Shown piece after piece: positions 2,508-29,946 of a DNA stretch of 64,000 nucleotides. The first letter of the stretch is position 1; each line of letters begins with the position of its first letter. The notes below the pieces were generated by a model. That model was not told the origin of the DNA and ran no database searches. It saw only the letters and a program-made list of their open reading frames with translations. The stretch comes from Fidelibacterota bacterium (lineage in GTDB: Bacteria; Fidelibacterota; UBA8477; JABMPR01), in the NCBI GenBank assembly GCA_021734255.1, contig JAIPJM010000009.1, forward strand, positions 1-64,000. The letters are read 5' to 3'. Made by a program: the position numbers and the translations under genes.

Positions 2508-2915
2508 TTATCGATTCTTTGGTCCAATCATGAGTTTTGTGGACTGTGTCGTTTCCGGAACTACGCACTCGCCGGTTCCATCGCCAGGACCTGTTTGATT
2601 GCGAGCTTGGGTACCAGATTTCATTCCACCATTTTTGTATCCCGAACCATCCCCTGGACCTGAACCATTATTACGCTTGGCTTTGAATCCTGCTCCTGAT
2701 CCGTCCTGTGGTCTTTCATAGTCCCCATCAAATTTGTTGGGGATTCCATCGCCATCAGCATCTGGTGCTAGGTCATTAAAGCCATCACCATTTTCATCGA
2801 TAAAATCGCCAGGGCCATTGCCCCAGGATCTACTCTGTGCATATAGTGGTGTATCAAGAGAGAAGACAGTTAGTGCTGCAATCATCATCAGTGCGGTTAA
2901 AAGTTGCTTTTTCAT
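2508..2915 (-). CDS. Small secreted Asp/Gly-rich (type-3-repeat-like, putative Ca-binding) protein
   Basis: Signal peptide then DENGDGFNDLAPDADGDGIPNKFDGD and GPGDGSG/GPGDGTG repeats; RBS AAGGAGG upstream. Confidence 0.55.
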   Translation of the reverse strand: MKKQLLTALMMIAALTVFSLDTPLYAQSRSWGNGPGDFIDENGDGFNDLAPDADGDGIPNKFDGDYERPQDGSGAGFKAKRNNGSGPGDGSGYKNGGMKSGTQARNQTGPGDGTGECVVPETTQSTKLMIGPKNR

Positions 2916-4462: not shown

Positions 4463-5784
4463 AATGAATGCTCAAAAATAATGCGAAAGGTGCTCCCTTT
4501 CCCAAGTTCACTGTCCACTTCAACAGTTCCACCGTGGTCTGCGATAATCTTATGCGTAATGGCTAGTCCAATTCCGGTTCCGGTACTTTTTGTTGAATAA
4601 TATAGATCAAAGATCCGCTGCAGGTCACGTTTATCGATCCCAGCCCCTGTATCTGATACATTTATTTCTATACCTGCACCAGACCTTGCAGCGCCAAGGT
4701 GAATCTGATCTCCCTGATCACATGCATCCAGTGCATTTCTGATGATGTTTGATAGTGCTTGCTGCAGATATTCAATATCTGCTTTCACCTGAATATTTGG
4801 ACTAGCAATAGTAAATTCAATTTGCCGCTCTTCAGCCAGAGATTGGTAAAGCTTGTGGATCTTGCTGAATACAGTGCCCAGGTTCACAGTCGTCAATTTG
4901 AGAGGGGTCGGGCGTGTATATTCCAGAAAATCATTCAGTGACCGGTTAATTTTTTCTATTTCGGACGACATTGTTTCAGTCAATCCACGAAATTCTTCAC
5001 CTTCATCCCCTGTGTGAAATTCACGCGTTAATCGCTGTGCAACAATCCCGATGGCATTTAATGGATTTCTGATTTCATGGGCTACCCCTGCTGCCAATTC
5101 ACCCATTGCCACTTGCTTTTCATTCATGCGATTAATCTTCTCCAGGCGATAGACTTCCTGCTCTATTCTCCCTTTTTCTCGTTTTAGAACTGCGGCATTC
5201 TGTCGAGCAAGCAGGAACATCATTCCGACCAGGGCCAGAACCGTCAACAATCCCATGCGCAGAAATATTCGAGAGATCATCTGCGCACGTAAGCTCATAA
5301 AAGCACTGGCATCAAATCCAATTCTCACCTCACCAATGCTCATCTCATAAAATATGGGACGGACAACTTCGAGAAGGTGGGTCTCCCCTTTTTTCAATTC
5401 ATATAGAATGTCATCAAGTGCTTTTCTATCCCAGCTATCATCAATAACCAGATTGTCTTTTGAGACGTAGAAGGGATCTTGATCTGCGTCAACAGAGATC
5501 TGGATATATTTAAGTCCGCGAACACGTAAGAGGTTCGAAAGCCCCATCTCGATCGACGTGTCAAAATCCGACGTTTCGTCTGTCAATGCTGCCTGAGAGC
5601 TAGCGCTTTGGGCAATGATACCAGTTGTCATAACAGCTTGATCCTGAACTAACTGAAGAAGATCCTGATACCGGGAGCGATACTCAAAAACACTTGAGAT
5701 CAGTAATAAGGCCATTATGATCACATAGATGGCCAGGTACCAGGGTTTCTCTTGAATAGCTTTTTTCAACATGCGTCCGATCAC
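4459..5784 (-). CDS. Membrane sensor histidine kinase
   Basis: Two TM segments, ELAAGVAHEIRNPLNAI H-box, DTGAGI/GTGIGLAI ATPase motifs; overlaps the regulator gene by 4 bp. Confidence 0.95.
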   Translation of the reverse strand: MIGRMLKKAIQEKPWYLAIYVIIMALLLISSVFEYRSRYQDLLQLVQDQAVMTTGIIAQSASSQAALTDETSDFDTSIEMGLSNLLRVRGLKYIQISVDADQDPFYVSKDNLVIDDSWDRKALDDILYELKKGETHLLEVVRPIFYEMSIGEVRIGFDASAFMSLRAQMISRIFLRMGLLTVLALVGMMFLLARQNAAVLKREKGRIEQEVYRLEKINRMNEKQVAMGELAAGVAHEIRNPLNAIGIVAQRLTREFHTGDEGEEFRGLTETMSSEIEKINRSLNDFLEYTRPTPLKLTTVNLGTVFSKIHKLYQSLAEERQIEFTIASPNIQVKADIEYLQQALSNIIRNALDACDQGDQIHLGAARSGAGIEINVSDTGAGIDKRDLQRIFDLYYSTKSTGTGIGLAITHKIIADHGGTVEVDSELGKGSTFRIIFEHSL

Positions 5785-16314: not shown

Positions 16315-16341
16315 AACCTAGATTTTGGAGTATAGGTTTGC
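16312..16341. promoter_or_regulatory. Perfect 9-bp inverted repeat, candidate operator or RNA hairpin
   Basis: GCAAACCTA-(GATTTTGGAGTA)-TAGGTTTGC immediately before ATG at 16343. Confidence 0.6.
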
Positions 16342-16342
16342 G

Positions 16343-16807
16343 ATGAATAGTCAGAACATACAAAACCGCCTGAATGACAAGACAAGACCGATGTTTACCA
16401 TTGGTGTTACCGCTGATCTTATCGGTGTCTCTGTTCATACCTTAAGAATGTATGAGAATGAAGGACTCATTCTTCCAAGCCGGACCCAATCTCAGAGGAG
16501 ATTGTATTCCCATTCAGATATCGAACGTCTACAGTGTATTCGAGCCATGATCGAAGAACGCGGATTCAATCTGGCTGGCATTAAAGGCATGATATCCATG
16601 GCTCCCTGTTGGGAGATCAAAGGATGCAGTAAAGCAGATCAGCAGATCTGTGACGCCTATCATCATGCCCTGGAACCTTGTTGGGTTGTAAAAACAAAGG
16701 GTGGTGAATGCGTAGACACTGATTGCACTGATTGTCCCGTTTATACAGAAGTTACCACATGTCATAATATGAAAACGTATTTAAAAGAACATTGGAAGCA
16801 CGCATGA
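16343..16807 (+). CDS. MerR-family regulator with Cys-rich (two-CW-like) C-terminal domain
   Basis: TIGVTADLIGVSVHTLRMYENEGLILPSRTQSQRRLYSHSDIERL HTH; C-terminal PCWEIKGC..C..PCWVV..C..C..C..C. ORF track uses TTG 16325; ATG 16343 preferred. Confidence 0.88.
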   Translation: MNSQNIQNRLNDKTRPMFTIGVTADLIGVSVHTLRMYENEGLILPSRTQSQRRLYSHSDIERLQCIRAMIEERGFNLAGIKGMISMAPCWEIKGCSKADQQICDAYHHALEPCWVVKTKGGECVDTDCTDCPVYTEVTTCHNMKTYLKEHWKHA

Positions 16808-19047
16808 GTCATACAATGAATCGTCGTGAGTTTATCAAGATAGCGGGTGTGGGAGCCAGCAGCCTGGCCTTCGCCACCCCCTTGTTTGATTTCTCAAAAG
16901 GTGAAGTGCTTGCCCCGGATACCCATCCAGGGATGTATTCGAAGCGAACACCTACATACTGTGAGATCTGCTTTTGGAAATGCGCTGGGTGGGTGCATAC
17001 CAACGAAGCAGGCAATATCTGGAAGATTACTGGTCATGAGGATGACCCCCATTCAAACGGACGTCTCTGCCCCAGAGGTACTGGCGGTGTTGGTATGTAC
17101 AATGATGAAGATCGACTAAAAACACCCCTGATCCGGACAGGGAAACGGGGGAGCCAGACCTTCAGAGAAGCCAGTTGGGATGAAGCGTTCGAGTACATCG
17201 CTGATGGATTGAAGAAGATCGCTGAAGAACATGGTCCCGAATGCGTGGCTCTCTTTACCCATGGATCAGGCGGTACATATTTCGGTGATATGCTAAAAGC
17301 TTACGGATCGAATAATATTGCAGCCCCCTCCTATGCTCAGTGTCGTGGACCCCGCGAAGTTGGATTTATTTCAACATACGGAGAAGGTGTCCAGTCTCCA
17401 GAAAGAGTTGACATCCGGGATACCAGATGCCTGGTTTTGATCGGATCGCACTTTGGTGAAAACATGCATAATGGCCCTGTGCAGGAGATCTCACAGGCCA
17501 CAGGAAAAGGCGCTTCAATCATCACCGTGGACCCAAGATTCTCAACGGTGGCCAGTAAATCAAAATTTTGGTTGCCGATCAAGCCGGCCACTGACCTGGC
17601 ACTGCTGCTGGCATGGATGCATGTGATCATATACGAAGGTTTATACGATAAAGAATATGTGGAAAAGTATACCTACGGATTTGAAGACCTGAAAGCCCAT
17701 GTGGCAGGTATGACCCCTGAGTGGGCCTACGGTATCACAACGATCAAGCCTGAGCAGATCAGGGCAACGGCACGTGAAATGGCGAATGCCAGCCCACGGG
17801 TGATCATTCATCCCGGCCGCCACGTTACTTGGTATGGTGATGACACCCAGCGCCTAAGGGCAGTAGCAATACTGAATGCTATTCTGGGTTCCTGGGGTCG
17901 ACGTGGTGGATATTATTATCCAGAAAAAGTGTCATTCAAAAGCTATCCACATCCTCCCTTTCCAAAACCGAAACGTACCTGGAAAGACGCCTACCCGGGT
18001 CAATACAAGCTTGCCGGATTGGCGCTGGCATCAGGTATCTGTGATGCCACAGTTCCAACGACTGAGCGGGATTGCTCATTCAAGGGCTGGATCGTGAATG
18101 GAACCAATCTCATCCATACCTTGCCAAACCAGGAAAACACATTGAAGGCAATCGATGCTCTGGACCTCATGGTTGTCATCGATACCATGCCTATGGAGAT
18201 CACAGGCTACGCCGACGTGATCCTACCTGAATGCACCTATCTGGAACGCTATGACAGTATCCGTGTCAGTCCACATCGGGAACCGACGATTGCCCTGCGA
18301 ATGCCGGCTGCTGAGCCGAAGTACAATACAAAACCAGCCTGGTGGATGGCGAAAGGCATTGCTGAAAAGCTAGGCCTGGGTCACTACCTACCCTGGAAGA
18401 ATATTGAAGAAAAGCTGGACTGGGAATTGAAGCAGGTCGGAACATCACTGCAAGAGATGAAGCGCATCGGTGTGAAGAAATTCGAGCGTGAATATGATGA
18501 TCTCTATCCCATGGAAGACCTTGCAGACTTTGAGTTCAATACGAACACAGGTAAGATCGAGCTCTACTCAACAGCCATGGAAGATGAAGGGTATGACCCC
18601 TTACCCAAGTACACGCATCACGAAGAACCACCGTATGGCTACTATCGTCTCAACTATGGTAGAGCACCCATGCACACCTTTAGTAGAACCGCCAACAATC
18701 CCAATCTGACAGACCTGATGGATGAGAATAGCGTATGGGTCAATCCAAAGGTTGCCAAGGGGTGGGACTTGAAGAACGATCAATATGTCTGGTTAGAAAA
18801 CCAGGATGGTGTCATCACCAAAACACCCATTAAAGTGAGAGTCACAGAGCGGATCCGCTTTGATAGTGTATTTGTGGTCCATGGCTTTGGTCACACCAAT
18901 CGTCACCTCTCCCGGGCGAACGGTCGCGGTGCCAGTGATGCTGATCTTATCACTCGCGTCCATACCGATCCTGTCATGGGTGGTACAGGTATGCGAGGGA
19001 ATTTCGTCACCTTCCGCTTTGAAGCTGGAGAGGAGGTGTCATCATGA
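16804..19047 (+). CDS. Tat-exported molybdopterin oxidoreductase (PsrA/PhsA-like catalytic subunit)
   Basis: RREFIKIAGVGASSLAF Tat signal; YCEICFWKC FeS site, GRLCPRG, AQCRGPR, C-terminal molydop-binding domain; ATGA overlap with merR. Confidence 0.93.
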   Translation: MSHTMNRREFIKIAGVGASSLAFATPLFDFSKGEVLAPDTHPGMYSKRTPTYCEICFWKCAGWVHTNEAGNIWKITGHEDDPHSNGRLCPRGTGGVGMYNDEDRLKTPLIRTGKRGSQTFREASWDEAFEYIADGLKKIAEEHGPECVALFTHGSGGTYFGDMLKAYGSNNIAAPSYAQCRGPREVGFISTYGEGVQSPERVDIRDTRCLVLIGSHFGENMHNGPVQEISQATGKGASIITVDPRFSTVASKSKFWLPIKPATDLALLLAWMHVIIYEGLYDKEYVEKYTYGFEDLKAHVAGMTPEWAYGITTIKPEQIRATAREMANASPRVIIHPGRHVTWYGDDTQRLRAVAILNAILGSWGRRGGYYYPEKVSFKSYPHPPFPKPKRTWKDAYPGQYKLAGLALASGICDATVPTTERDCSFKGWIVNGTNLIHTLPNQENTLKAIDALDLMVVIDTMPMEITGYADVILPECTYLERYDSIRVSPHREPTIALRMPAAEPKYNTKPAWWMAKGIAEKLGLGHYLPWKNIEEKLDWELKQVGTSLQEMKRIGVKKFEREYDDLYPMEDLADFEFNTNTGKIELYSTAMEDEGYDPLPKYTHHEEPPYGYYRLNYGRAPMHTFSRTANNPNLTDLMDENSVWVNPKVAKGWDLKNDQYVWLENQDGVITKTPIKVRVTERIRFDSVFVVHGFGHTNRHLSRANGRGASDADLITRVHTDPVMGGTGMRGNFVTFRFEAGEEVSS

Positions 19048-19577
19048 GATACGGCATGGCTGTGGACACTCTAAAGTGTGTCGGCTGTAGTGACTGTGTC
19101 GTTGCCTGCCAAACTGAGAATGACGTACCTATCGGATACTGCAGGGATTGGATCGTGGAAAAGACCTTTGGAAGTTATCCCGAACTGCAGCTCGAGATCC
19201 GCTCAGAAAGATGTAATCATTGCGCAAATGCACCCTGTGTTCGTACCTGCCCTACGGAAGCCAGTCACTACGGCCCCGGTGGTGTTGTACTGGTAGAGGA
19301 GAATGAATGTATTGGCTGTAAGGCCTGCATCACATCCTGCCCTTATGATGCACGTTTCGTCCATCCCGAAGGATATGTAGACAAGTGTACTTTCTGTATA
19401 CACCGTGTCGAAAAAGGTCAGAACCCAGCCTGCGTGTCTGTTTGTCCTACCCACGCGATGATCTTTGGTGACATGGACGACCCAAACAGTGAACTATCGA
19501 AAGCAATGGCGACCAGAAAATGGAAAGCACTGATTCCTGAAGCTGGCACTGATCCAAAAGTATTCTACTTGTTATAG
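19044..19577 (+). CDS. 4Fe-4S ferredoxin subunit of Mo-oxidoreductase (PsrB/PhsB-like)
   Basis: CVGCSDCVVACQ, CNHCANAPCVRTCP, CIGCKACITSCPYDAR, CTFCIHRVEKGQNPACVSVCP. Confidence 0.95.
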   Translation: MRYGMAVDTLKCVGCSDCVVACQTENDVPIGYCRDWIVEKTFGSYPELQLEIRSERCNHCANAPCVRTCPTEASHYGPGGVVLVEENECIGCKACITSCPYDARFVHPEGYVDKCTFCIHRVEKGQNPACVSVCPTHAMIFGDMDDPNSELSKAMATRKWKALIPEAGTDPKVFYLL

Positions 19578-19585
19578 AGGCTATC

Positions 19586-20527
19586 ATGATTGAAGAAATA
19601 ATTACTAGTGGACGAATGAATCCGGAGATCGATCCCGTGCTCCATGTTTGGGGCTGGGAGATCCCTTTTTACCTGTTTCTGGGTGGGATAGCGGCCGGAT
19701 TACTGATCTTTTCTGCCTACTTCTCCTTGAGGGGTCGTGAGGATGAACTACCAACGGCGGTTAAATGGATGCCGCTCGGTGTCCCCGTTGTTATTAGTGT
19801 CGGATTGATCGCCTTACTTCTGGATCTATCCCACGTCTGGTATTTCTGGCAGTTATTCACCAATATACGCTGGGAATCACCCATGTCATGGGGTGCCTGG
19901 ACGTTGACCGTCATTACCCCCCTTTCCATCGCCTGGATAGCCATCTGGATCGAGGATATATTTCCAAATTGGGACTGGAAGTTTGAAGAAGTAAAAACAG
20001 TCATCAAATGGTTGAAAGAACAGAAGCGGGTTCTCGCTCAGGTGCTGATCCTGCTATCCATAATCCTGGGCATGTACACAGGTATCCTGCTATCAGCTTT
20101 CAATGCCAGGCCATTCTGGAATACCAGTATACTGGGACCGCTCTTCCTGGCGTCAGGACTATCAGCAAGTGCGGCACTCATCGTATTTTTCTCAAAATCA
20201 GAGGTCGAGAAACGGTTATTCACACGAATCGATATTATTCTCATCGGGATCGAACTATTTCTGATCGTTCATCTCTTCATGGGTCATCTCGCTGGAACGC
20301 AGGTTCACATTCAAGCAGCCGAAATGTTCCTGGGTGGGCCTTATACGGTGGTTTTCTGGATCTTTGTGGTCGGGATGGGACTTGTTCTTCCCGTCGTTCT
20401 CGAACTCCTGGAGCTCAAACATAAATTCATTCCAGCTATCGTACCAGTTGTGCTCATCGTTGGCGGTAATCTCATGCTGCGCTTTATCGTTGTCAGTGCC
20501 GGCCAGGCCAGTCGCTGGTTGTATTAA
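19586..20527 (+). CDS. NrfD/PsrC-like membrane quinone-interacting subunit
   Basis: Multi-TM, WGWEIPFYLFLGGIAAGL; operon position. Confidence 0.9.
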   Translation: MIEEIITSGRMNPEIDPVLHVWGWEIPFYLFLGGIAAGLLIFSAYFSLRGREDELPTAVKWMPLGVPVVISVGLIALLLDLSHVWYFWQLFTNIRWESPMSWGAWTLTVITPLSIAWIAIWIEDIFPNWDWKFEEVKTVIKWLKEQKRVLAQVLILLSIILGMYTGILLSAFNARPFWNTSILGPLFLASGLSASAALIVFFSKSEVEKRLFTRIDIILIGIELFLIVHLFMGHLAGTQVHIQAAEMFLGGPYTVVFWIFVVGMGLVLPVVLELLELKHKFIPAIVPVVLIVGGNLMLRFIVVSAGQASRWLY

Positions 20528-20560: not shown

Positions 20561-21070
20561 ATGAAAACAAAGTACATGAATCCTTACCTGGCAGGGGTCC
20601 TCCTTGGCCTGGTTCTTCTCATGGCTTTCTTCTTCTCAGGACGCGGCCTGGGTGCAAGTGGAGCCATGAAAAGCGTAATGGTGACGGCAGTGGATGTCGT
20701 TGCACCCGAACATACCGCGAATTCAGATTTTTACGGCAAGTACGTAGGGGAAGGTAAATCACCTATGAAAGCCTGGTTAGTTTTTGAGGTCCTGGGTGTG
20801 CTGGTCGGTGGTTTTCTTTCCGGTGCCCTTTCTGGTCGCTTGAACTGGAAGATCGAACACTTCCCGGGTATCAGTTCCAACAGGCGACTCGTCTTCGCTG
20901 CACTCGGTGGCATCCTGTTTGGGTTTGGAGCCCAGCTGGGACGTGGTTGTACCAGTGGATCGGCATTAACCGGTATGGCTGTGCTTTCAGTCGGTGGATT
21001 TGTCACGATGGCGGCAATTTTTGGAACCGCCTTCGCACTGGCCTACTTCTTTAGAAAAAATTGGATATAG
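20561..21070 (+). CDS. YeeE/YedE-family sulfur transporter, half 1
   Basis: FGFGAQLGRGCTSGSALTGMAVLSVGGFVTM. Confidence 0.9.
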   Translation: MKTKYMNPYLAGVLLGLVLLMAFFFSGRGLGASGAMKSVMVTAVDVVAPEHTANSDFYGKYVGEGKSPMKAWLVFEVLGVLVGGFLSGALSGRLNWKIEHFPGISSNRRLVFAALGGILFGFGAQLGRGCTSGSALTGMAVLSVGGFVTMAAIFGTAFALAYFFRKNWI

Positions 21071-21076
21071 GAGGCG

Positions 21077-21670
21077 ATGATGGGACCTTTAGTACCTCAA
21101 GAGATCATCGGCGCGAATTGGAATTTGTTCATTGCATTCGCTATTGGAGTCGGTTTTGGTTTTGTCCTCGAGCAGGCAGGATTTAGTTCGAGTAGAAAGT
21201 TGGCCGGCATGTTTTACGGTTATGATACCGTTGTATTAAAAGTGTTTTTTACAGGCGCCATCACTGCCATGCTGGGTCTGTTATTTTTCAGCCTATTCGG
21301 CTGGATCGACCTGAACCTGGTCTATGTGAACCCGACCTTCCTTGGCAGTGCCATCGTCGGTGGGATTATCATGGGCGCTGGATTCATCATGGGCGGATTC
21401 TGCCCCGGCACGAGTGTCTGTGCAGCAGCGATTGGAAAAGTTGATGCCATGGTCTTCATTGGCGGAATTTTTCTCGGCGTATTCTTTTTCGCGGAAGGGT
21501 ACCCCCTGCTGAAGGATTTCTACATGTCAGGCTCCTATGGACCATTAAAATTGCATGAGGTTCTAGGTATCTCAAGTGGCGTGCTTGTATTACTAGTTAT
21601 CATTGCCGCACTGGGGATGTTCAAATTGGGTGAAATGGCTGAGAAGAAGTGGCCCAGAGAGGAGTATTGA
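21077..21670 (+). CDS. YeeE/YedE-family sulfur transporter, half 2
   Basis: GFVLEQAGFSSSRKLAGMFYGYD, MGAGFIMGGFCPGTSVCAAAIGK. Confidence 0.9.
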   Translation: MMGPLVPQEIIGANWNLFIAFAIGVGFGFVLEQAGFSSSRKLAGMFYGYDTVVLKVFFTGAITAMLGLLFFSLFGWIDLNLVYVNPTFLGSAIVGGIIMGAGFIMGGFCPGTSVCAAAIGKVDAMVFIGGIFLGVFFFAEGYPLLKDFYMSGSYGPLKLHEVLGISSGVLVLLVIIAALGMFKLGEMAEKKWPREEY

Positions 21671-22296
21671 TCATGACTATTAGAAATATTGTTTTCCTCG
21701 GTATGGTCTTCCTTGGTGTTGTCATTGCCATGGTTCCTGAGAATACAACCAAGCCGTACAAATTGACTGCAGAAGAGATGGTGATAGAGGTTCAAAGCGC
21801 TGCTGAGATGGTAAGTGCTGATAATGTTGCACACTGGTTGATCTCCAAAGACCCCAGTCTTCAGCTCATCGATGTTCGCTCACCTGATGAATTTCAGAAA
21901 TACCACCTGGAAAATGCGATCAATATTCCCCTTTCAGTCATCCTGGAAGATGAGTATCGCGATATCGTGGACCAGGGTGTGAAGATGAATGTCCTCTATT
22001 CTAATGGCACACTTGATTCGCACAAAGGGTGGATGATCCTTAGACAGCTGGGATTTGAGAATAATTATGTCCTTCAGGGTGGCTTGAATTACTGGTTTGA
22101 TACTATCATGAATCCGCAGGCTCCCTCTGTATATTCTGCTGATGAAGAATTTGCAAAATATGATTTCAGAAAAGCAGCGAGTGGTGCGCTGGGCGGTGGT
22201 GGTGCTGTAACATTGACTGCCCCTGCTAAAACCAAGGCGAAAAAGCCACCAATCATTCGGAAAAAGAAGAAAAAAGCCCCTGAAGGTGGTTGCTAA
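21649..22296 (+). CDS. Membrane-anchored rhodanese-like protein, Cys-less active loop, C-terminal -GGC
   Basis: LIDVRSPDEFQKYHLENAINIPL; active-site loop VLYSNG; tail KKPPIIRKKKKKAPEGGC-stop. Real start may be the ATG at MTIRN (21673). Confidence 0.85.
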   Translation: MAQRGVLIMTIRNIVFLGMVFLGVVIAMVPENTTKPYKLTAEEMVIEVQSAAEMVSADNVAHWLISKDPSLQLIDVRSPDEFQKYHLENAINIPLSVILEDEYRDIVDQGVKMNVLYSNGTLDSHKGWMILRQLGFENNYVLQGGLNYWFDTIMNPQAPSVYSADEEFAKYDFRKAASGALGGGGAVTLTAPAKTKAKKPPIIRKKKKKAPEGGC

Positions 22297-23399: not shown

Positions 23400-23762
23400 A
23401 TGCATGAAATGTCAATTGCCATAAATATCGTCAGCATTGCCCGCAAGGAAGCTGAGAAGGAAAGTGCCCCTTCCATCTCCATGATCGAATTGGAGGTAGG
23501 GAAACTGGCCGGTGTCATGGTCGATTCATTACAATTCTGCTATGAAGCCGCCTGTAAAGGAACTCTGGCTGAAGGATCTGAGCTTCAGATAATTGAATTG
23601 GAAGGTCAGGCAAAATGTATGCAGTGCGGGAATGTGTTCACAATAGATAGCTTCATGGCGATCTGTCCAAAATGTGACACCTATGAGATCGAGATCATCC
23701 AGGGCAAAGAATTAAGACTAAAAGCTATTTCAATAAACGAGGAAGGATCCAGTCATGTGTGA
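23400..23762 (+). CDS. hypA: Hydrogenase nickel insertion protein HypA
   Basis: MHEMSIA start, CMQCGN...CPKCDT zinc site. Confidence 0.95.
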   Translation: MHEMSIAINIVSIARKEAEKESAPSISMIELEVGKLAGVMVDSLQFCYEAACKGTLAEGSELQIIELEGQAKCMQCGNVFTIDSFMAICPKCDTYEIEIIQGKELRLKAISINEEGSSHV

Positions 23763-24558
23763 CACCTGTGGTTGCGGATCAAACAGTACAACATTTACAA
23801 AGCATGGCGAAAAGGAACACCACCATGGTGATGGGCACCATCATGACCATGACCATGATCACGGGCACAATCACGATCATTCGCACGAACATGATCATAG
23901 CACCCATACACATGGTCGCACCATTGAAGTCGAGCAAGATGTTCTGGGTGAGAATAATTTGTTGGCCCAGAGAAATCGTGGGTATTTCGAGGCTAAAAAT
24001 ATTTTCGCACTTAACCTGGTAAGTTCACCGGGATCAGGAAAAACCACCCTCTTGGAAAAGACTCTGGTGGAACTGCAGGATGTTCCCAGCGCGGTCATTG
24101 AAGGTGACCAACAAACCATGAATGATGCTGATAGAGTTGCGGCGACCGGTGTCCCCGTCTTGCAGATCAATACAGGGAACGGCTGCCATCTGGACGCCAA
24201 TATGATTCATACAGCTTATGGTGAGTTAGAGCTGAAGAATGATTCCGTTCTTTTCATTGAGAATGTCGGCAATCTGGTTTGTCCAGCACTCTTCGATCTG
24301 GGAGAGAATAAGCGTGTGGTCATCATCAGTGTGACTGAGGGTGAGGATAAACCTGCCAAATATCCAACCATGTTCGATGCCGCTGATATTTGTATCATTA
24401 ATAAGATCGACCTCCTTCCATATGTGGAATTCGATGTGGCCCGTTGCAAGGAGCACGCACTGAAGGTGAATCACCAGCTGGAGTTTTTTGAACTCTCTGC
24501 TACTACTGGTGAAGGGATGGATACCTGGCTGAGCTGGCTGAGAGACAATTTGAAGTGA
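23755..24558 (+). CDS. hypB: Hydrogenase nickel incorporation GTPase HypB
   Basis: CDTCGCG N-terminus, His-rich stretch, SSPGSGKTTLLEKT P-loop. Confidence 0.97.
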   Translation: MCDTCGCGSNSTTFTKHGEKEHHHGDGHHHDHDHDHGHNHDHSHEHDHSTHTHGRTIEVEQDVLGENNLLAQRNRGYFEAKNIFALNLVSSPGSGKTTLLEKTLVELQDVPSAVIEGDQQTMNDADRVAATGVPVLQINTGNGCHLDANMIHTAYGELELKNDSVLFIENVGNLVCPALFDLGENKRVVIISVTEGEDKPAKYPTMFDAADICIINKIDLLPYVEFDVARCKEHALKVNHQLEFFELSATTGEGMDTWLSWLRDNLK

Positions 24559-24591
24559 GAGTGACCCAAATGCTTTTACTACTATTAACCT

Positions 24592-24756
24592 GTAATCCCG
24601 AAGTGTCACCCTGCCTGCCAAGTCGAAGTTGAAAAGCGTAGACTGGAGCTTGTCGAAGGACAAGGGATTACTCCTAGGTGAGTGATTAATTCGTCGGTAA
24701 CTCGAGATTGCCACGTCGTCCTACCCTGCGCGTTGGACTCCTTGCAAAGACGCAAT
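24592..24756. repeat. Interspersed-repeat-like mosaic between hypB and hypF
   Basis: GTAATCCC...GGGATTAC inverted arms around GAGCTTGTCGAAGGA, then GAGATTGCCACGTCG...CTTGCAAAGACGCAAT. Confidence 0.5.
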
Positions 24757-24776
24757 TATGAAGGTGTTTTAACAGT

Positions 24777-27050
24777 TTGAGTGATAGCCATAACCAAGTT
24801 CGGCGACGTTTCACCATCAATGGCATTGTTCAAGGGGTGGGATTTCGGCCGTTCATTTACAATCTTGCGCGTGAGATTGGATTAACAGGAACCGTTGCCA
24901 ACACGTCTGTTGGTGTCCTTATCGAGATCCAGGGTGAGTCGAAGCAGATCCAGGCATTTTCAAGCCGCACTGAAGCAGAAGCCCCGCCACTTTCAACCAT
25001 TACCTCGATCAAAGAAGAGCCGATACCTGCTACCGAGGAGAATGATTTTATCATTATCTCCTCTGAGGGTGCGAGTGAGGTGGCAACTCTTATCTCCCCT
25101 GATGTAGCGCTATGTGAAGACTGCCGAAATGAATTATTTGACCCTTCCAACCGGCGCTATGGTTACCCCTTCATCAATTGTACGAATTGCGGCCCCCGTT
25201 ATACCATCATTGAGAATATTCCCTACGACCGACCGTATACATCCATGAAACATTTCCCCTTGTGTGTAGACTGCCAGGAAGAATATGACAATCCTGCCGA
25301 TCGGAGGTTTCATGCGCAACCAAACGCCTGTCCCGTTTGTGGTCCCCATGTATGGCTAAGTGATGACAAGGGTCATGCGCTTGATTCAAAGGACTCTGTC
25401 AAGCTGGCCATCGACCTGCTGTCTGGCGGTAAAATACTGGCTATCAAAGGCTTGGGGGGATTCCACCTGGCGGTCGATGCAAAAAATGATGCCGCTGTAG
25501 CACGCCTACGTCAAGCCAAGGGAAGAGATGAAAAGCCCTTTGCGCTGATGGTGAGAGATCTGGACAAAGCAATTCGATATTGTGAGTTGGATGAGAAAGA
25601 GGTCCAGACTCTGGATTCTATCCAGGCTCCCATTCTGCTTGCCGGGCAAAAGAAAGGGACCGATCTGGCAGTCAATATCGCCCCTGGTTCTGACCGGCTG
25701 GGTATCATGCTTCCCTACACACCACTCCATCACATGCTAATGAGTCATTCTCTGGATGTACTGGTCATGACCAGTGCAAACTTTAGTGAAGAACCTATCT
25801 GCATCGACAATGATGAAGCGGTGGAACGATTGTCTGGAATGGTTGATAATTTTCTTTTTCATGATCGGGATATCTATTTGAGAAGTGATGATTCTGTCGT
25901 CATCAAGATGGACGATACGATTCGACCGATACGGCGAAGTCGAGGCTACGCCCCCCGACCTGTATTCCTGAAGGATGAGGGTCCGTCAATCCTGGCTGTA
26001 GGTGCTGAGCTGAAAAATACGGTGGCACTCTCCAAGGACGAAAAAGTATTCCTGAGTCAGCATATTGGAGACCTTGAGAACCTGGAGGCATTTGAGTTCT
26101 TCAAAATGACCATCGAACATATCCAGAGGATCTTCGAGATAGAGCCGGAACTGATCGTCCACGATCTGCACCCAGAATACCTTTCCACAAAATGGGCCAA
26201 GGAACAGACCTTGTCCTTGCTCGGTGTCCAACATCACCATGCTCACCTGGCTTCTGCCATGGCAGAAAATGACCTTAATGAACCAGTAATAGGGATCATC
26301 ATGGATGGGACTGGGTTTGGGACGGATGGTACGATCTGGGGTGGCGAATTCCTGGTCGGGGATTATGCTGGTTTTTCCAGAGCCGCATGCATAGAACCTA
26401 TGGTATTACCGGGCGGGGAAGCAGCTATCAAGGCTCCCTGGCGTACGAGCTTGAGTTATCTGTACCACACATATGGCGAGACGCTTCCTGACATTCCCAT
26501 GCTGGAGGGAAAAGATATTTCTCCAATACTGCAAATGATCGATAAAAGGATCAACTCACCCTTCACCAGCAGTTGTGGACGTCTCTTCGATGCAGTGGCG
26601 GCGCTTTCCGGTGGAAGGCGGGAAATTCGATACGAGGCCCAGGCAGCCATCGAATTCATGCAAGCAGCAAACAATGAATTAGGCAAAGATCGAACTGCTT
26701 TTGATATCACCCAACCCGAGAATCATTACATCATCTCTGTAGGGCATATTATGCAGGAACTCGTTTCAAGGATTGACTCCGGGTACTCATTAGCATCGCT
26801 TAGTCAGTGGTTTCATCATAGCCTTATCACCACTTTTGTAAAGATGACCAACCGACTGAGCCAGAATTCAGGTATCAACAGCGTTGTTCTTAGCGGTGGG
26901 GTATTTCAAAATATGCTACTGTTTGAAGGCTTGGTCAATGCTTTGACTAAACATAATTTTGTGGTATATACTCACAAACAAGTCCCAACGAATGATGGTG
27001 GAATAGCACTGGGGCAGGTGGCTGTGGGGCGAAACTTTTTAGAGAACTGA
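24777..27050 (+). CDS. hypF: Carbamoyltransferase HypF
   Basis: Acylphosphatase N-terminus NGIVQGVGFRPFIYNLA, CxxCx18CxxC zinc fingers, SRGYAPRP, QHHHAHLASAMAE; TTG start. Confidence 0.97.
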   Translation: MSDSHNQVRRRFTINGIVQGVGFRPFIYNLAREIGLTGTVANTSVGVLIEIQGESKQIQAFSSRTEAEAPPLSTITSIKEEPIPATEENDFIIISSEGASEVATLISPDVALCEDCRNELFDPSNRRYGYPFINCTNCGPRYTIIENIPYDRPYTSMKHFPLCVDCQEEYDNPADRRFHAQPNACPVCGPHVWLSDDKGHALDSKDSVKLAIDLLSGGKILAIKGLGGFHLAVDAKNDAAVARLRQAKGRDEKPFALMVRDLDKAIRYCELDEKEVQTLDSIQAPILLAGQKKGTDLAVNIAPGSDRLGIMLPYTPLHHMLMSHSLDVLVMTSANFSEEPICIDNDEAVERLSGMVDNFLFHDRDIYLRSDDSVVIKMDDTIRPIRRSRGYAPRPVFLKDEGPSILAVGAELKNTVALSKDEKVFLSQHIGDLENLEAFEFFKMTIEHIQRIFEIEPELIVHDLHPEYLSTKWAKEQTLSLLGVQHHHAHLASAMAENDLNEPVIGIIMDGTGFGTDGTIWGGEFLVGDYAGFSRAACIEPMVLPGGEAAIKAPWRTSLSYLYHTYGETLPDIPMLEGKDISPILQMIDKRINSPFTSSCGRLFDAVAALSGGRREIRYEAQAAIEFMQAANNELGKDRTAFDITQPENHYIISVGHIMQELVSRIDSGYSLASLSQWFHHSLITTFVKMTNRLSQNSGINSVVLSGGVFQNMLLFEGLVNALTKHNFVVYTHKQVPTNDGGIALGQVAVGRNFLEN

Positions 27051-27515
27051 GTTGTTGAGTTTCTGAGTTTGTGGGCTTAAAATGAAGCAACCCCCAAACA
27101 ATAGCAGGATTTTAAATGGCTACTTTGAAGAAATTTGAAGATGTTCACGCTTGGCAAAAAACACGCGTAATGGTGAAAGAGATATATACTCTTTCAAGTC
27201 TTAGTGCTTTTTCAAAAGATTATGGATTGAAGGATCAAATAAGAAGATGCGGTGTATCAATAATGGCCAATATTGCTGAGGGCTATGGCAGAAAATCAAG
27301 GAAGGAATTTGCCTACTTTCTAAACATTGCTCATGGTTCTGCAGCCGAGTTGCAATCACATTTATATATTGCGCTCGATTTGGGCTATATTGATAAGGAT
27401 AGTTTTGATCATCTATATGCAGAAACTGAAGAAATTTCAAAGATGATATTGGGTCTCCAAAACTATCTCAGGAAATTGGTAAGATCATGAAACTCAAGAA
27501 CTCATAAACTCAGGA
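27046..27515. mobile_element. Putative small cassette: four-helix-bundle gene flanked by inverted TGAGTTNN arrays
   Basis: Left CTGAGTTGTTGAGTTTCTGAGTTTG (27046..); right strand-reversed CTGAGTTTATGAGTTCTTGAGTTTC (..27512); three 8-bp units in each. Confidence 0.45.
27116..27490 (+). CDS. Four-helix bundle protein (23S rRNA IVS-encoded / S23-like family)
   Basis: FEDVHAWQKTRVMVKEIY, LKDQIRRCGVSIMANIAEGYGRKSRKEFAYFLNIAHGSAAELQSHLYIALDLGYI. Confidence 0.93.
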   Translation: MATLKKFEDVHAWQKTRVMVKEIYTLSSLSAFSKDYGLKDQIRRCGVSIMANIAEGYGRKSRKEFAYFLNIAHGSAAELQSHLYIALDLGYIDKDSFDHLYAETEEISKMILGLQNYLRKLVRS

Positions 27516-27524
27516 TAAATAATT

Positions 27525-27797
27525 ATGTGTCTAGCAGTACCCGGAAAATTATTGGAAGTATTTGATGAGAATGGTCTCAAAATGGGAAACATAGATTTTG
27601 CTGGATCAGTAAGCAAAGCCTGTTTGGAGTATGTACCTGAGATCGAAGTTGGGCAGTACACCATCGTTCATGCCGGTTTTGCGCTTTCGGTACTGAATGA
27701 GAAAGAGGCACAGGAAACGTTTGATGCCTGGGATGAGGTCATTGATGCTGCCAATAAAGATGGGATTGGCTTGGAAAAACTGGAGCGTCCTGATTGA
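27525..27797 (+). CDS. hypC: Hydrogenase assembly chaperone HypC
   Basis: [13 protein letters not shown]-terminus. Confidence 0.96.
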
Positions 27798-28888
27798 AGT
27801 ATCTTGATGAGTTCCGTGATCCAAAAATAGCCAAAAAGATCCTGGATGAGATCCACCAGGTAACCACTCAACCGTGGGTCATCATGGAGATCTGTGGTGG
27901 CCAGACCCACTCTATCATCCGCAATGGGATCGATCAGGTCCTACCCAAAGAAATTGAACTTGTCCACGGTCCCGGATGCCCTGTTTGCGTAACCCCGCTG
28001 GAGATCATTGATAAAGCCATTGAGATCGCCGGACGTCCAAATGTCATATTTACCAGTTTCGGGGATATGCTCCGTGTTCCCGGTAGTAAAAAGGATCTAT
28101 TCATGGTCCGCTCTGAGGGCGGAGATGTGCGTACAGTTTTTTCACCGCTTGAAAGTTTGAAGATCGCCAGGGAGAATCCGGATAAGGAAGTTGTCTTTTT
28201 CGCCGTCGGATTCGAAACAACGGCTCCAGGCAATGCCATGGCAGTTGCTCAGGCAGCAAAGGAAGGCTTAAGCAATTTCAGCGAGTTGGTCAGCCATGTG
28301 CTGGTTCCGCCTGCCATGGAAGCACTCCTTTCGAGCTCTACCAACCGGGTCCAGGGGTATCTGGCAGCTGGCCATGTCTGTACGGTCATGGGCTGGGAAG
28401 AATACACACCTATTGCTAAAAAGTATGAGGTGCCCATTGTGATCACTGGCTTTGAGCCTCTGGATGTGCTGGATGGCATTCTCCATACGGTGAAACAATT
28501 GGAAGCTGGCACTTTTGAGGTTGAGAACAGGTATGCCCGGATTGTGGAAGAAGGTGGGAACAAACCTGCTCAGGTTTTGATCCAGGATGTCTTTGAAGTT
28601 GCAGATAGAAAATGGAGAGGAATTGGTGAAATTCCAGTCAGTGGTTTTCGAATTACTGAAAAGTATCGGCAATATGATGCTGAACTAAAATTTGATGTCG
28701 GTGAGATCAAAACCGATGAGCCAGAAGAATGCATCAGTGGTGTTATTCTCCAAGGGTTAAAAAAACCTCACGACTGCCCAGCATTCGGCAAAACCTGCAC
28801 GCCACAGAACCCGCTGGGAGCGACCATGGTATCAAGTGAAGGTGCCTGCGCAGCCTACTACAAATACCAACGAATTAAGGCCGATTGA
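27794..28888 (+). CDS. hypD: Hydrogenase formation protein HypD
   Basis: [43 protein letters not shown]; 4-bp overlap with hypC. Confidence 0.97.
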
Positions 28889-29946
28889 GAGCCCCTATGG
28901 ATTTCCCTGAATCTCTATCCTGCCCGGTGCCGATTCTCAGCCATGACACTGTCCAATTAGCTCATGGAGCAGGCGGTAAACTATCGAACGAGATGATCGA
29001 TAAGATCTTTCTCCCCCGCTTCACCAATACGACCCTGGAAAAGATGGAAGATCAGGCCATTCTGGAGAATCCAGGCGGGAGGATTGCCTTTAGCACTGAC
29101 ACCTTCGTGGTTGACCCCATTTTCTTTCCCGGTGGTGATATTGGCGACCTGGCCATCAATGGAACGGTGAATGATGTCGCCATGAGCGGGGCTCAGCCAC
29201 TTTATCTTAGTGCTGGATTTATCCTGGAGGAAGGTCTCCCCTTTGAGACGCTGCATCGGATCGTTCTATCCATGGAGAAGGCAGCCAATATTGCCGGTAT
29301 CCAGATCGTTGCTGGAGATACAAAAGTGGTCAATCGCGGGAGTTGTGATAAACTTTTTATTAATACAACTGGCTTCGGTTTCGTCCCAGATGGCATCAAT
29401 ATTTCAGCCTCAAATTTAAAGGCTGGCGATAAGATCATTCTCTCAGGAACCCTGGCTGATCACGGAATGGCAGTGATGACCAGTCGTGAGGGCCTATCTT
29501 TCCAGTCAACTGTCAAAAGCGATACAGCTGGCCTGAATCACATGGTAAATGATATGCTTGCGGTAAGCCATGATATTCATGCCCTGCGGGATCCTACTCG
29601 TGGTGGTCTGGCAACCACTTTGAATGAATTTGCAGCAACATCCAATGTGGGTATCCAATTGGAAGATGGCAAGATTCCGGTAAAAGATGATGTAAGAGGC
29701 GCCTGCGAGTTGCTGGGGATCGATCCACTTTACGTTGCCAACGAAGGCAAACTGGTCGCGGTCGTTCCGCCAGAAATTGCGGATACCATGTTGGCGGCAA
29801 TGCAGAATAATCCCCTGGGCGCAAATGCCGTGATCATCGGTGAAGTTACTGATAATCACCCCGGAGTTGTTGCCCTGCGAATGGGTCTGGGAGGTAATCG
29901 TATAGTGGATATGACTGTTGGGGAACAACTCCCTCGTATTTGCTAA
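28885..29946 (+). CDS. hypE: Hydrogenase expression/formation protein HypE
   Basis: [28 protein letters not shown]-terminal PRIC. Confidence 0.97.

Follow-up and report, generated by a model that had tools for sequence, protein, structure and literature searches.

What does a rhodanese contribute to an operon when the cysteine expected in its active-site loop is absent and the single cysteine of the protein stands at the very end of the chain? This question is raised by a gene located in a 64,000-nucleotide stretch of DNA from a Fidelibacterota bacterium, referred to as the window. A sequence-only reading had proposed a periplasmic carrier of sulfane sulfur, in which the rhodanese domain serves as a scaffold and a mobile tail hands sulfur between an exported molybdenum enzyme and a YeeE/YedE pair.

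The gene, its product and its operon

The open reading frame at 21649-22296 is confirmed as genuine, but its start had been placed too far upstream. Indeed, the GTG at 21649, giving a translation of 215 amino acids, falls within the upstream YeeE gene (ending at 21670), and the ATG at 21673, which follows GAGAGGAG by about 8 nt, is therefore preferred as the likely start of an arm rhodanese of 207 amino acids plus stop (21673..22296, forward strand). The gene is found in a single copy in the 2.87-Mb source genome, and its named relatives assign it to Candidatus Neomarinimicrobiota. Pfam detects a single domain in its product, Rhodanese (PF00581, 7.6e-14), and Foldseek matches it to solved rhodanese-fold structures (5e-07). 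In an AlphaFold2 model built with 22 homologs as input, the rhodanese domain (residues 41-170) has a pLDDT of about 87-95. It is preceded by a predicted membrane helix at residues 3-19, in agreement with the N-terminal anchor suggested earlier, and followed by a tail with a pLDDT <50 from about residue 176 (176-201 and 203-207).

Catalytic sulfurtransferases possess a nucleophilic cysteine in their active loop. In the window protein, this loop reads VLYSNG and, by alignment with ordinary rhodaneses, carries Ser110 (22000..22002, +) at the position of their catalytic cysteine, as the sequence-only reading had recognized. Because the nucleophile is gone, the fold would no longer be catalytic. 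The sole cysteine is, as also noted then, the last residue, Cys207, which closes the tail KKKKKAPEGGC; the codons of Gly205-Gly206-Cys207 (22285..22293, +) encode a GGC end that is invariant in alignments A1 and A2. The predicted disordered arm (residues 177-207; 22201..22293, +) would form a flexible, usually basic and glycine-ended extension of about 30 residues.

Upstream of the arm gene are encoded a PsrA/PhsA-type molybdopterin enzyme with a Tat-like RREFIK signal (16792..19047, +; NCBIfam PhsA thiosulfate reductase, 1.6e-140, under the equivalog cut-off), a PsrB-type 4Fe-4S subunit (19044..19577, +; Pfam Fer4_11, 4e-24; NCBIfam DsrO/NrfC/TtrB relatives), a PsrC/NrfD-type membrane subunit (19586..20527, +; Pfam NrfD, 3.8e-48) and both halves of a split YeeE/TsuA transporter. 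Among Neomarinimicrobiota loci whose flanks are long enough, nearly all show the order psrA-psrB-psrC-yeeE1-yeeE2-rhodanese, which also occurs in Bacteroidales and Flavobacteriia. No substrate is assigned to the molybdenum enzyme of the window, since Psr, Phs and Sre are inseparable by sequence (PMC8359478). The psrABC genes of Marinimicrobia were already known from a study in which no rhodanese is mentioned (PMC5688066). The operon is preceded by a gene for a MerR-family regulator with a Cys-rich C-terminal half (16325..16807, +), an arrangement conserved in most Neomarinimicrobiota and in several Bacteroidota. The cysteines of this regulator follow the pattern CWEIKGC...CDAYHH...CWVVK...CVDTDCTDCP...C, and its synteny with the psr genes suggests a possible role in sensing sulfur or redox state. 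Downstream of the arm gene, the window contains the hydrogenase-maturation genes hypA, hypB, hypF, hypC, hypD and hypE (23400-29946), with a small ORF (27116-27490) between hypF and hypC resembling a four-helix-bundle S23 protein.

Conservation of the terminal cysteine and a candidate selenocysteine form

Relatives were retained at E<=1e-12 from 149-245 genomes of the phylum, 396 Bacteroidota genomes and one Gemmatimonadota plasmid, that of Gemmatirosa being the one informative match of the plasmid search. The resulting 110 distinct members span three phyla and include one ordinary rhodanese (L170) and one broken frame (L166); they are related by descent, so that Fisher values computed from their counts are not those of independent trials. 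The first 21 homologs, sharing 35-86% identity with the window protein, all end in GGC and none has a loop cysteine, and serine occupies the catalytic position in the 22 sequences of alignment A2, whereas ordinary rhodaneses have cysteine. In the whole set, 107 of the 110 members have cysteine in the final position (100) or in the one before it (7). The endings are GGC (73), EGC (18), MGC (4), GSC (2), GGC followed by one residue (7, as GGCS, GGCG, GGCA or GGCT), and DGC, RGC and FQC (one each), and the arm cysteine is encoded by TGT in 67 cases and by TGC in 42. The three non-conforming members are L170, L166 and L177, the latter a UGA-ending fusion. At the loop position stand S (63), A (22), G (21), C (2), D (1) and a gap (1), a cysteine being present in or beside the catalytic position in only 4/110.

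The terminal cysteine thus lies far beyond chance. A profile deprived of the tail, stopping at residue 175, again gave 107/110, which rules out a bias introduced by tail-containing profiles. Nor is such an ending a common trait of the rhodaneses that these genomes encode: a terminal or penultimate cysteine occurs in 1/53 proteins of the comparison set, this one being a tandem copy of the arm family, and none of the 52 ordinary rhodaneses from the same searches has a terminal cysteine, the loop cysteine being kept. That the 3' end results from a sequencing error or a frameshift, as raised by the sequence-only reading against its own proposal, is excluded by the conservation of the arm in independent genomes. 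The same reading had looked to orthologs with a loop cysteine and no terminal one as evidence against it; a single match has these features, L170, an ordinary rhodanese of 103 amino acids with no YeeE nearby.

Across the family, the constant part of the tail is the Gly-Cys end, whereas the lysine stretch is usual but not universal, the tail being RPRERTAVVQGGC in L018 and KKVKVEVEEGGC in L065. Flavobacteriia possess two tandem arm proteins with a common KKKKKAPEGGC-type tail, and the domain of the second one is 26-29% identical to that of the window protein; the tail is thus more conserved than the domain. Tandem arm genes occur, for instance, in the cultured Flavivirga rizhaonensis. Two Bacteroidota members, L077 and L080, combine a loop cysteine (LYCEDN/LYCENN) with a terminal EGC and are possible intermediates between a catalytic rhodanese and an arm carrier. 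Tandem arm rhodaneses are also carried by two near-identical 7-kb contigs (L175, L176) of a genome listed as 5% contaminated (G080), and these contigs are possibly foreign or strain variants.

In three Neomarinimicrobiota genomes of the window genus (G045, G065 and G094; loci L200-L202), and at genes distinct from that of the window, selenocysteine (Sec) apparently replaces the arm cysteine. The YeeE2-rhodanese fusions encoded there end in KKASGGG or KKATGGG, followed by TGA, GGC, TGA or TAG, and TAG. The GGG-UGA-GGC stands at the same place as the GGC plus one residue of Cys-type fusion relatives, and would be read as -GGG-Sec-Gly. This candidate Sec ending, with the stop and a SECIS-like hairpin, lies at about 5079-5123 (-) in L200, 6824-6868 (+) in L201 and 2668-2712 (+) in L202. 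The hairpin comprises 9 pairs after the UGA, with 96% of cells paired and 3 compensated pairs, a level reached by 18 of 500 shuffles with n=3 sequences. Its apical loop, GGU/GUU, lies about 18 nt 3' of the UGA, and slid controls were clearly worse, with the limited power of three sequences. Screening against Rfam for a SECIS family returned only chance matches below gathering scores. All three genomes encode a tRNA-Sec, and SelB exceeds its cut-off in G045 and G065, but not in G094, which is 63% complete. A premature stop causing loss of the cysteine was judged unlikely, as the three sequences retain the UGA with its compensated hairpin, the next Gly codon and the tandem stops. According to a 2026 review, Sec forms of the rhodanese and YeeE families are known (PMC13188914). 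An exchange of cysteine for Sec exactly at the arm residue would provide independent evidence that this residue is the reactive group. With the catalytic cysteine lost family-wide, a tail disordered in the model and its cysteine conserved or apparently swapped for Sec, the earlier idea of a rhodanese scaffold bearing a mobile tail is strongly supported.

The YeeE channel, the sulfur enzymes and the proposed carrier

The constant neighbour of the arm rhodanese is the split YeeE pair, which adjoins it in 105/110 members, so that the link to this pair made by the sequence-only reading is very strong. Among the five members without adjacent YeeE, contig ends truncate three, L170 falls outside the family and one belongs to genome G450. 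About a third of the set (36/110) are fusion proteins in which the rhodanese follows YeeE2, a membrane segment separating the two halves, and the tail terminates YeeE fusions too. In the window, the neighbouring pair matches Sulf_transp (PF04143) in two complementary halves (9.8e-22 and 3.1e-11), YeeE2 (21077..21670, +) being the N-terminal half and YeeE1 (20561..21070, +) the C-terminal one. Each half contains an invariant pore cysteine, Cys109 of YeeE2 (101/101) and Cys130 of YeeE1 (100/100). Phmmer searches of the PDB with single YeeE halves gave no match, whereas profiles did match and, aligned with solved TsuA (6leo/8j4c), they place Cys109 on Cys91, Cys130 on Cys293 and Ser37 of YeeE2 on Cys22. 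This third cysteine of TsuA is replaced by Ser37 in the window and by Gly in L200. Cys91 and Cys293 of TsuA are reported as indispensable, and the short PmpA/PmpB halves retain just their equivalents (PMC11582611). Loss of the first TsuA cysteine suggests, without proving it, that the arm provides the thiol missing in YeeE.

In the fusions, the membrane segment between the two parts is bordered by basic residues on its inner side, which would place the rhodanese and its arm on the periplasmic side according to the positive-inside rule, a location consistent with the gene context.

The enzymes accompanying this pair are more variable. Genes for psr are linked in 58 members, whereas roughly every second member keeps YeeE without any psr close by. 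An octaheme cytochrome of the tetrathionate-reductase family (TIGR04315, 1e-167 to 1e-173) with a cytochrome b is found with 27 members; the L200 locus is such an octaheme operon, including a multiheme/cytochrome b561 fusion and an adjoining ArsR-type regulator. The MGC-ending group and Gemmatirosa include a secreted two-domain rhodanese with an intact catalytic YCHIGQQ, and in Flavobacteriia additional rhodaneses with a catalytic cysteine are encoded downstream. Psr as sole partner is excluded, since the arm is kept in octaheme-linked and rhodanese-linked loci without psr. The proposed link to an exported molybdenum enzyme thus holds for the window genome and about half of the family, and a position between this enzyme and YeeE is a special case, as the enzyme is one of several interchangeable partners. 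In G450, psrABC is directly followed by two arm rhodaneses (locus L124) with tails ending in ...KKVKVEVEEGGC and few lysines, and no YeeE match was found in that genome. Unless YeeE was missed in an incomplete assembly, it is therefore not the only possible partner, and a direct exchange between molybdenum enzyme and arm is possible.

The window-type protein is probably a dead rhodanese with a SoxY-like terminal thiol or selenol arm, through which periplasmic enzymes and YeeE would exchange sulfane sulfur. The rhodanese fold would serve as a docking scaffold of a membrane-anchored, periplasm-facing sulfur (chalcogen) carrier, the reactive thiol having been relocated to the end of a flexible arm. 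A periplasmic enzyme would load this thiol as a persulfide or thiosulfonate, presumably the Psr/Phs-type molybdenum enzyme here, and the octaheme tetrathionate-reductase-type cytochrome or the secreted two-domain rhodanese in relatives. Swinging towards the opening of the split YeeE1/YeeE2 channel, the loaded arm would then exchange sulfur with the two conserved pore cysteines, or the transfer could proceed in the opposite direction. Thiosulfate or polysulfide, being anionic, may be drawn to the basic tail. More tentatively, these proteins could represent a new class of transporter-tethered chalcogen arms, whose terminal thiol, or selenol in some Neomarinimicrobiota, would enter the channel mouth, complete a Cys22-less YeeE and couple varied sulfur-respiratory enzymes to sulfur transport through the membrane.

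A conserved terminal thiol or selenol would also fit a disulfide relay or metal binding. In a redox relay, which we regard as unlikely, the arm Cys or Sec would exchange electrons or disulfides, like the C-terminal arm of mammalian thioredoxin reductase, and reduce S-S bonds of tetrathionate, thiosulfate or YeeE adducts without carrying sulfur. The candidate -GGG-Sec-Gly ending and the octaheme tetrathionate-reductase-family partner are in line with such a role, Sec being typical of redox thiols (PMC13188914). However, 61 of 74 standalone members have a single cysteine in their last 190 residues, hence no resolving partner within the protein, and the scaffold is a sulfurtransferase fold surrounded by genes that include sulfur transporters and a sulfurtransferase. 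An arm gathering polysulfide sulfur for PsrA alone, with YeeE devoted to a separate import, would recall the periplasmic rhodanese Sud of Wolinella, which passes polysulfide sulfur to Psr (PMC2754497), and it agrees with the 58 psr-linked members and with G450. This possibility is given a lower probability still, as YeeE is kept where psr is lacking and none of the 110 members is fused to a Psr subunit, compared with 36 fused to YeeE2.

That the tail binds Cu, Hg or As species, either to transport them or to confer resistance, appears highly improbable. Although metal binding has been suggested for the C-terminal Sec/Cys tails of other prokaryotic selenoproteins, UXX-star and SaoC (PMC13188914), one cysteine among Lys/Arg residues is ill suited to hold a soft metal, the cargo of the YeeE family is thiosulfate or sulfane sulfur and the three recurring neighbour modules are all sulfur enzymes. 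A slightly smaller chance is left to a structural or sorting function outside sulfur chemistry, in which the Gly-Cys end would direct processing or anchoring, or tether the protein by a disulfide. Its strictly terminal placement after a variable sequence would suit such a function, but in several relatives one more residue follows the cysteine, three genomes apparently have Sec in its place, a membrane helix is already present and the YeeE fusions also end in the tail.

The carrier reading bears on how periplasmic sulfane sulfur crosses the inner membrane in sulfur respiration and oxidation, as it designates a partner tied genetically, and often covalently, to the YeeE channel. A widespread protein annotated as a rhodanese would be reassigned from enzyme to carrier, with a probable selenoprotein form marking its reactive residue naturally. 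The arm gene also provides a genomic marker common to the Psr, octaheme-cytochrome and rhodanese modules, both in cultured Bacteroidota and in marine Neomarinimicrobiota that are uncultured.

Comparison with known systems

No description of the arm family was found in the literature and, as subscription journals were thinly covered, its novelty is provisional. The nearest parallel for the arm is SoxY, a periplasmic protein whose sulfur-carrying cysteine stands on a Gly-rich C-terminal swinging arm, GGCGG (PMC6067878); for P. pantotrophus, a ...GGCG end of the wild type can be deduced from a C151E primer. The arm family possesses a comparable C-terminal Gly-Cys arm, predicted to be disordered, with an invariant GGC in alignment A2 and GGCG or GGCS variants elsewhere. 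A hand-over of sulfur from SoxY to the YeeE-type SoxT has been discussed as a proposal (PMC11582611). Unlike SoxY, the arm family is built on the unrelated rhodanese fold, the only one detected by Pfam, and no SoxZ was present among the operon genes scanned. Moreover, its members are membrane-anchored or YeeE-fused, their tail is usually Lys-rich with the cysteine mostly at the very last position, and they are linked to Psr, an octaheme cytochrome or a rhodanese, not to SoxXAB.

Other YeeE-family channels, TsuA-TsuB (YeeE-YeeD) and SoxT, also have a dedicated thiol partner carrying sulfur. TsuB is a cytoplasmic TusA-like protein, whereas the partner here would be an exported, often channel-fused dead rhodanese, and the window channel is split as in PmpA/PmpB and keeps two of the three cysteines of TsuA.

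Mammalian thioredoxin reductase has a flexible C-terminal Gly-Cys-Sec-Gly (GCUG) arm, in which Sec precedes the final Gly. It is a flavoenzyme transferring electrons through a paired Cys-Sec, and the arm family, whose candidate Sec form shares the flexible arm with Sec before a final Gly, is not homologous to it. The Sec motifs listed for selenoprotein rhodaneses and YeeE proteins (UxxS, UxxG, CxU, UxxxxU and GUxSG) are of the internal type, and a C-terminal GGG-Sec-Gly on a YeeE-rhodanese fusion is absent from this listing (PMC13188914).

Sud of W. succinogenes is likewise a periplasmic single-rhodanese protein working with polysulfide reductase; the window sequence matches its structure (1qxn) and has psrABC upstream, as do 58 relatives. 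Sud acts through the single cysteine of its rhodanese domain, whereas the window protein has a serine there and carries Cys207 on the disordered tail, and the arm family adds a membrane anchor and the YeeE pair. The arm family thus resembles both SoxY and Sud in action and belongs to neither.
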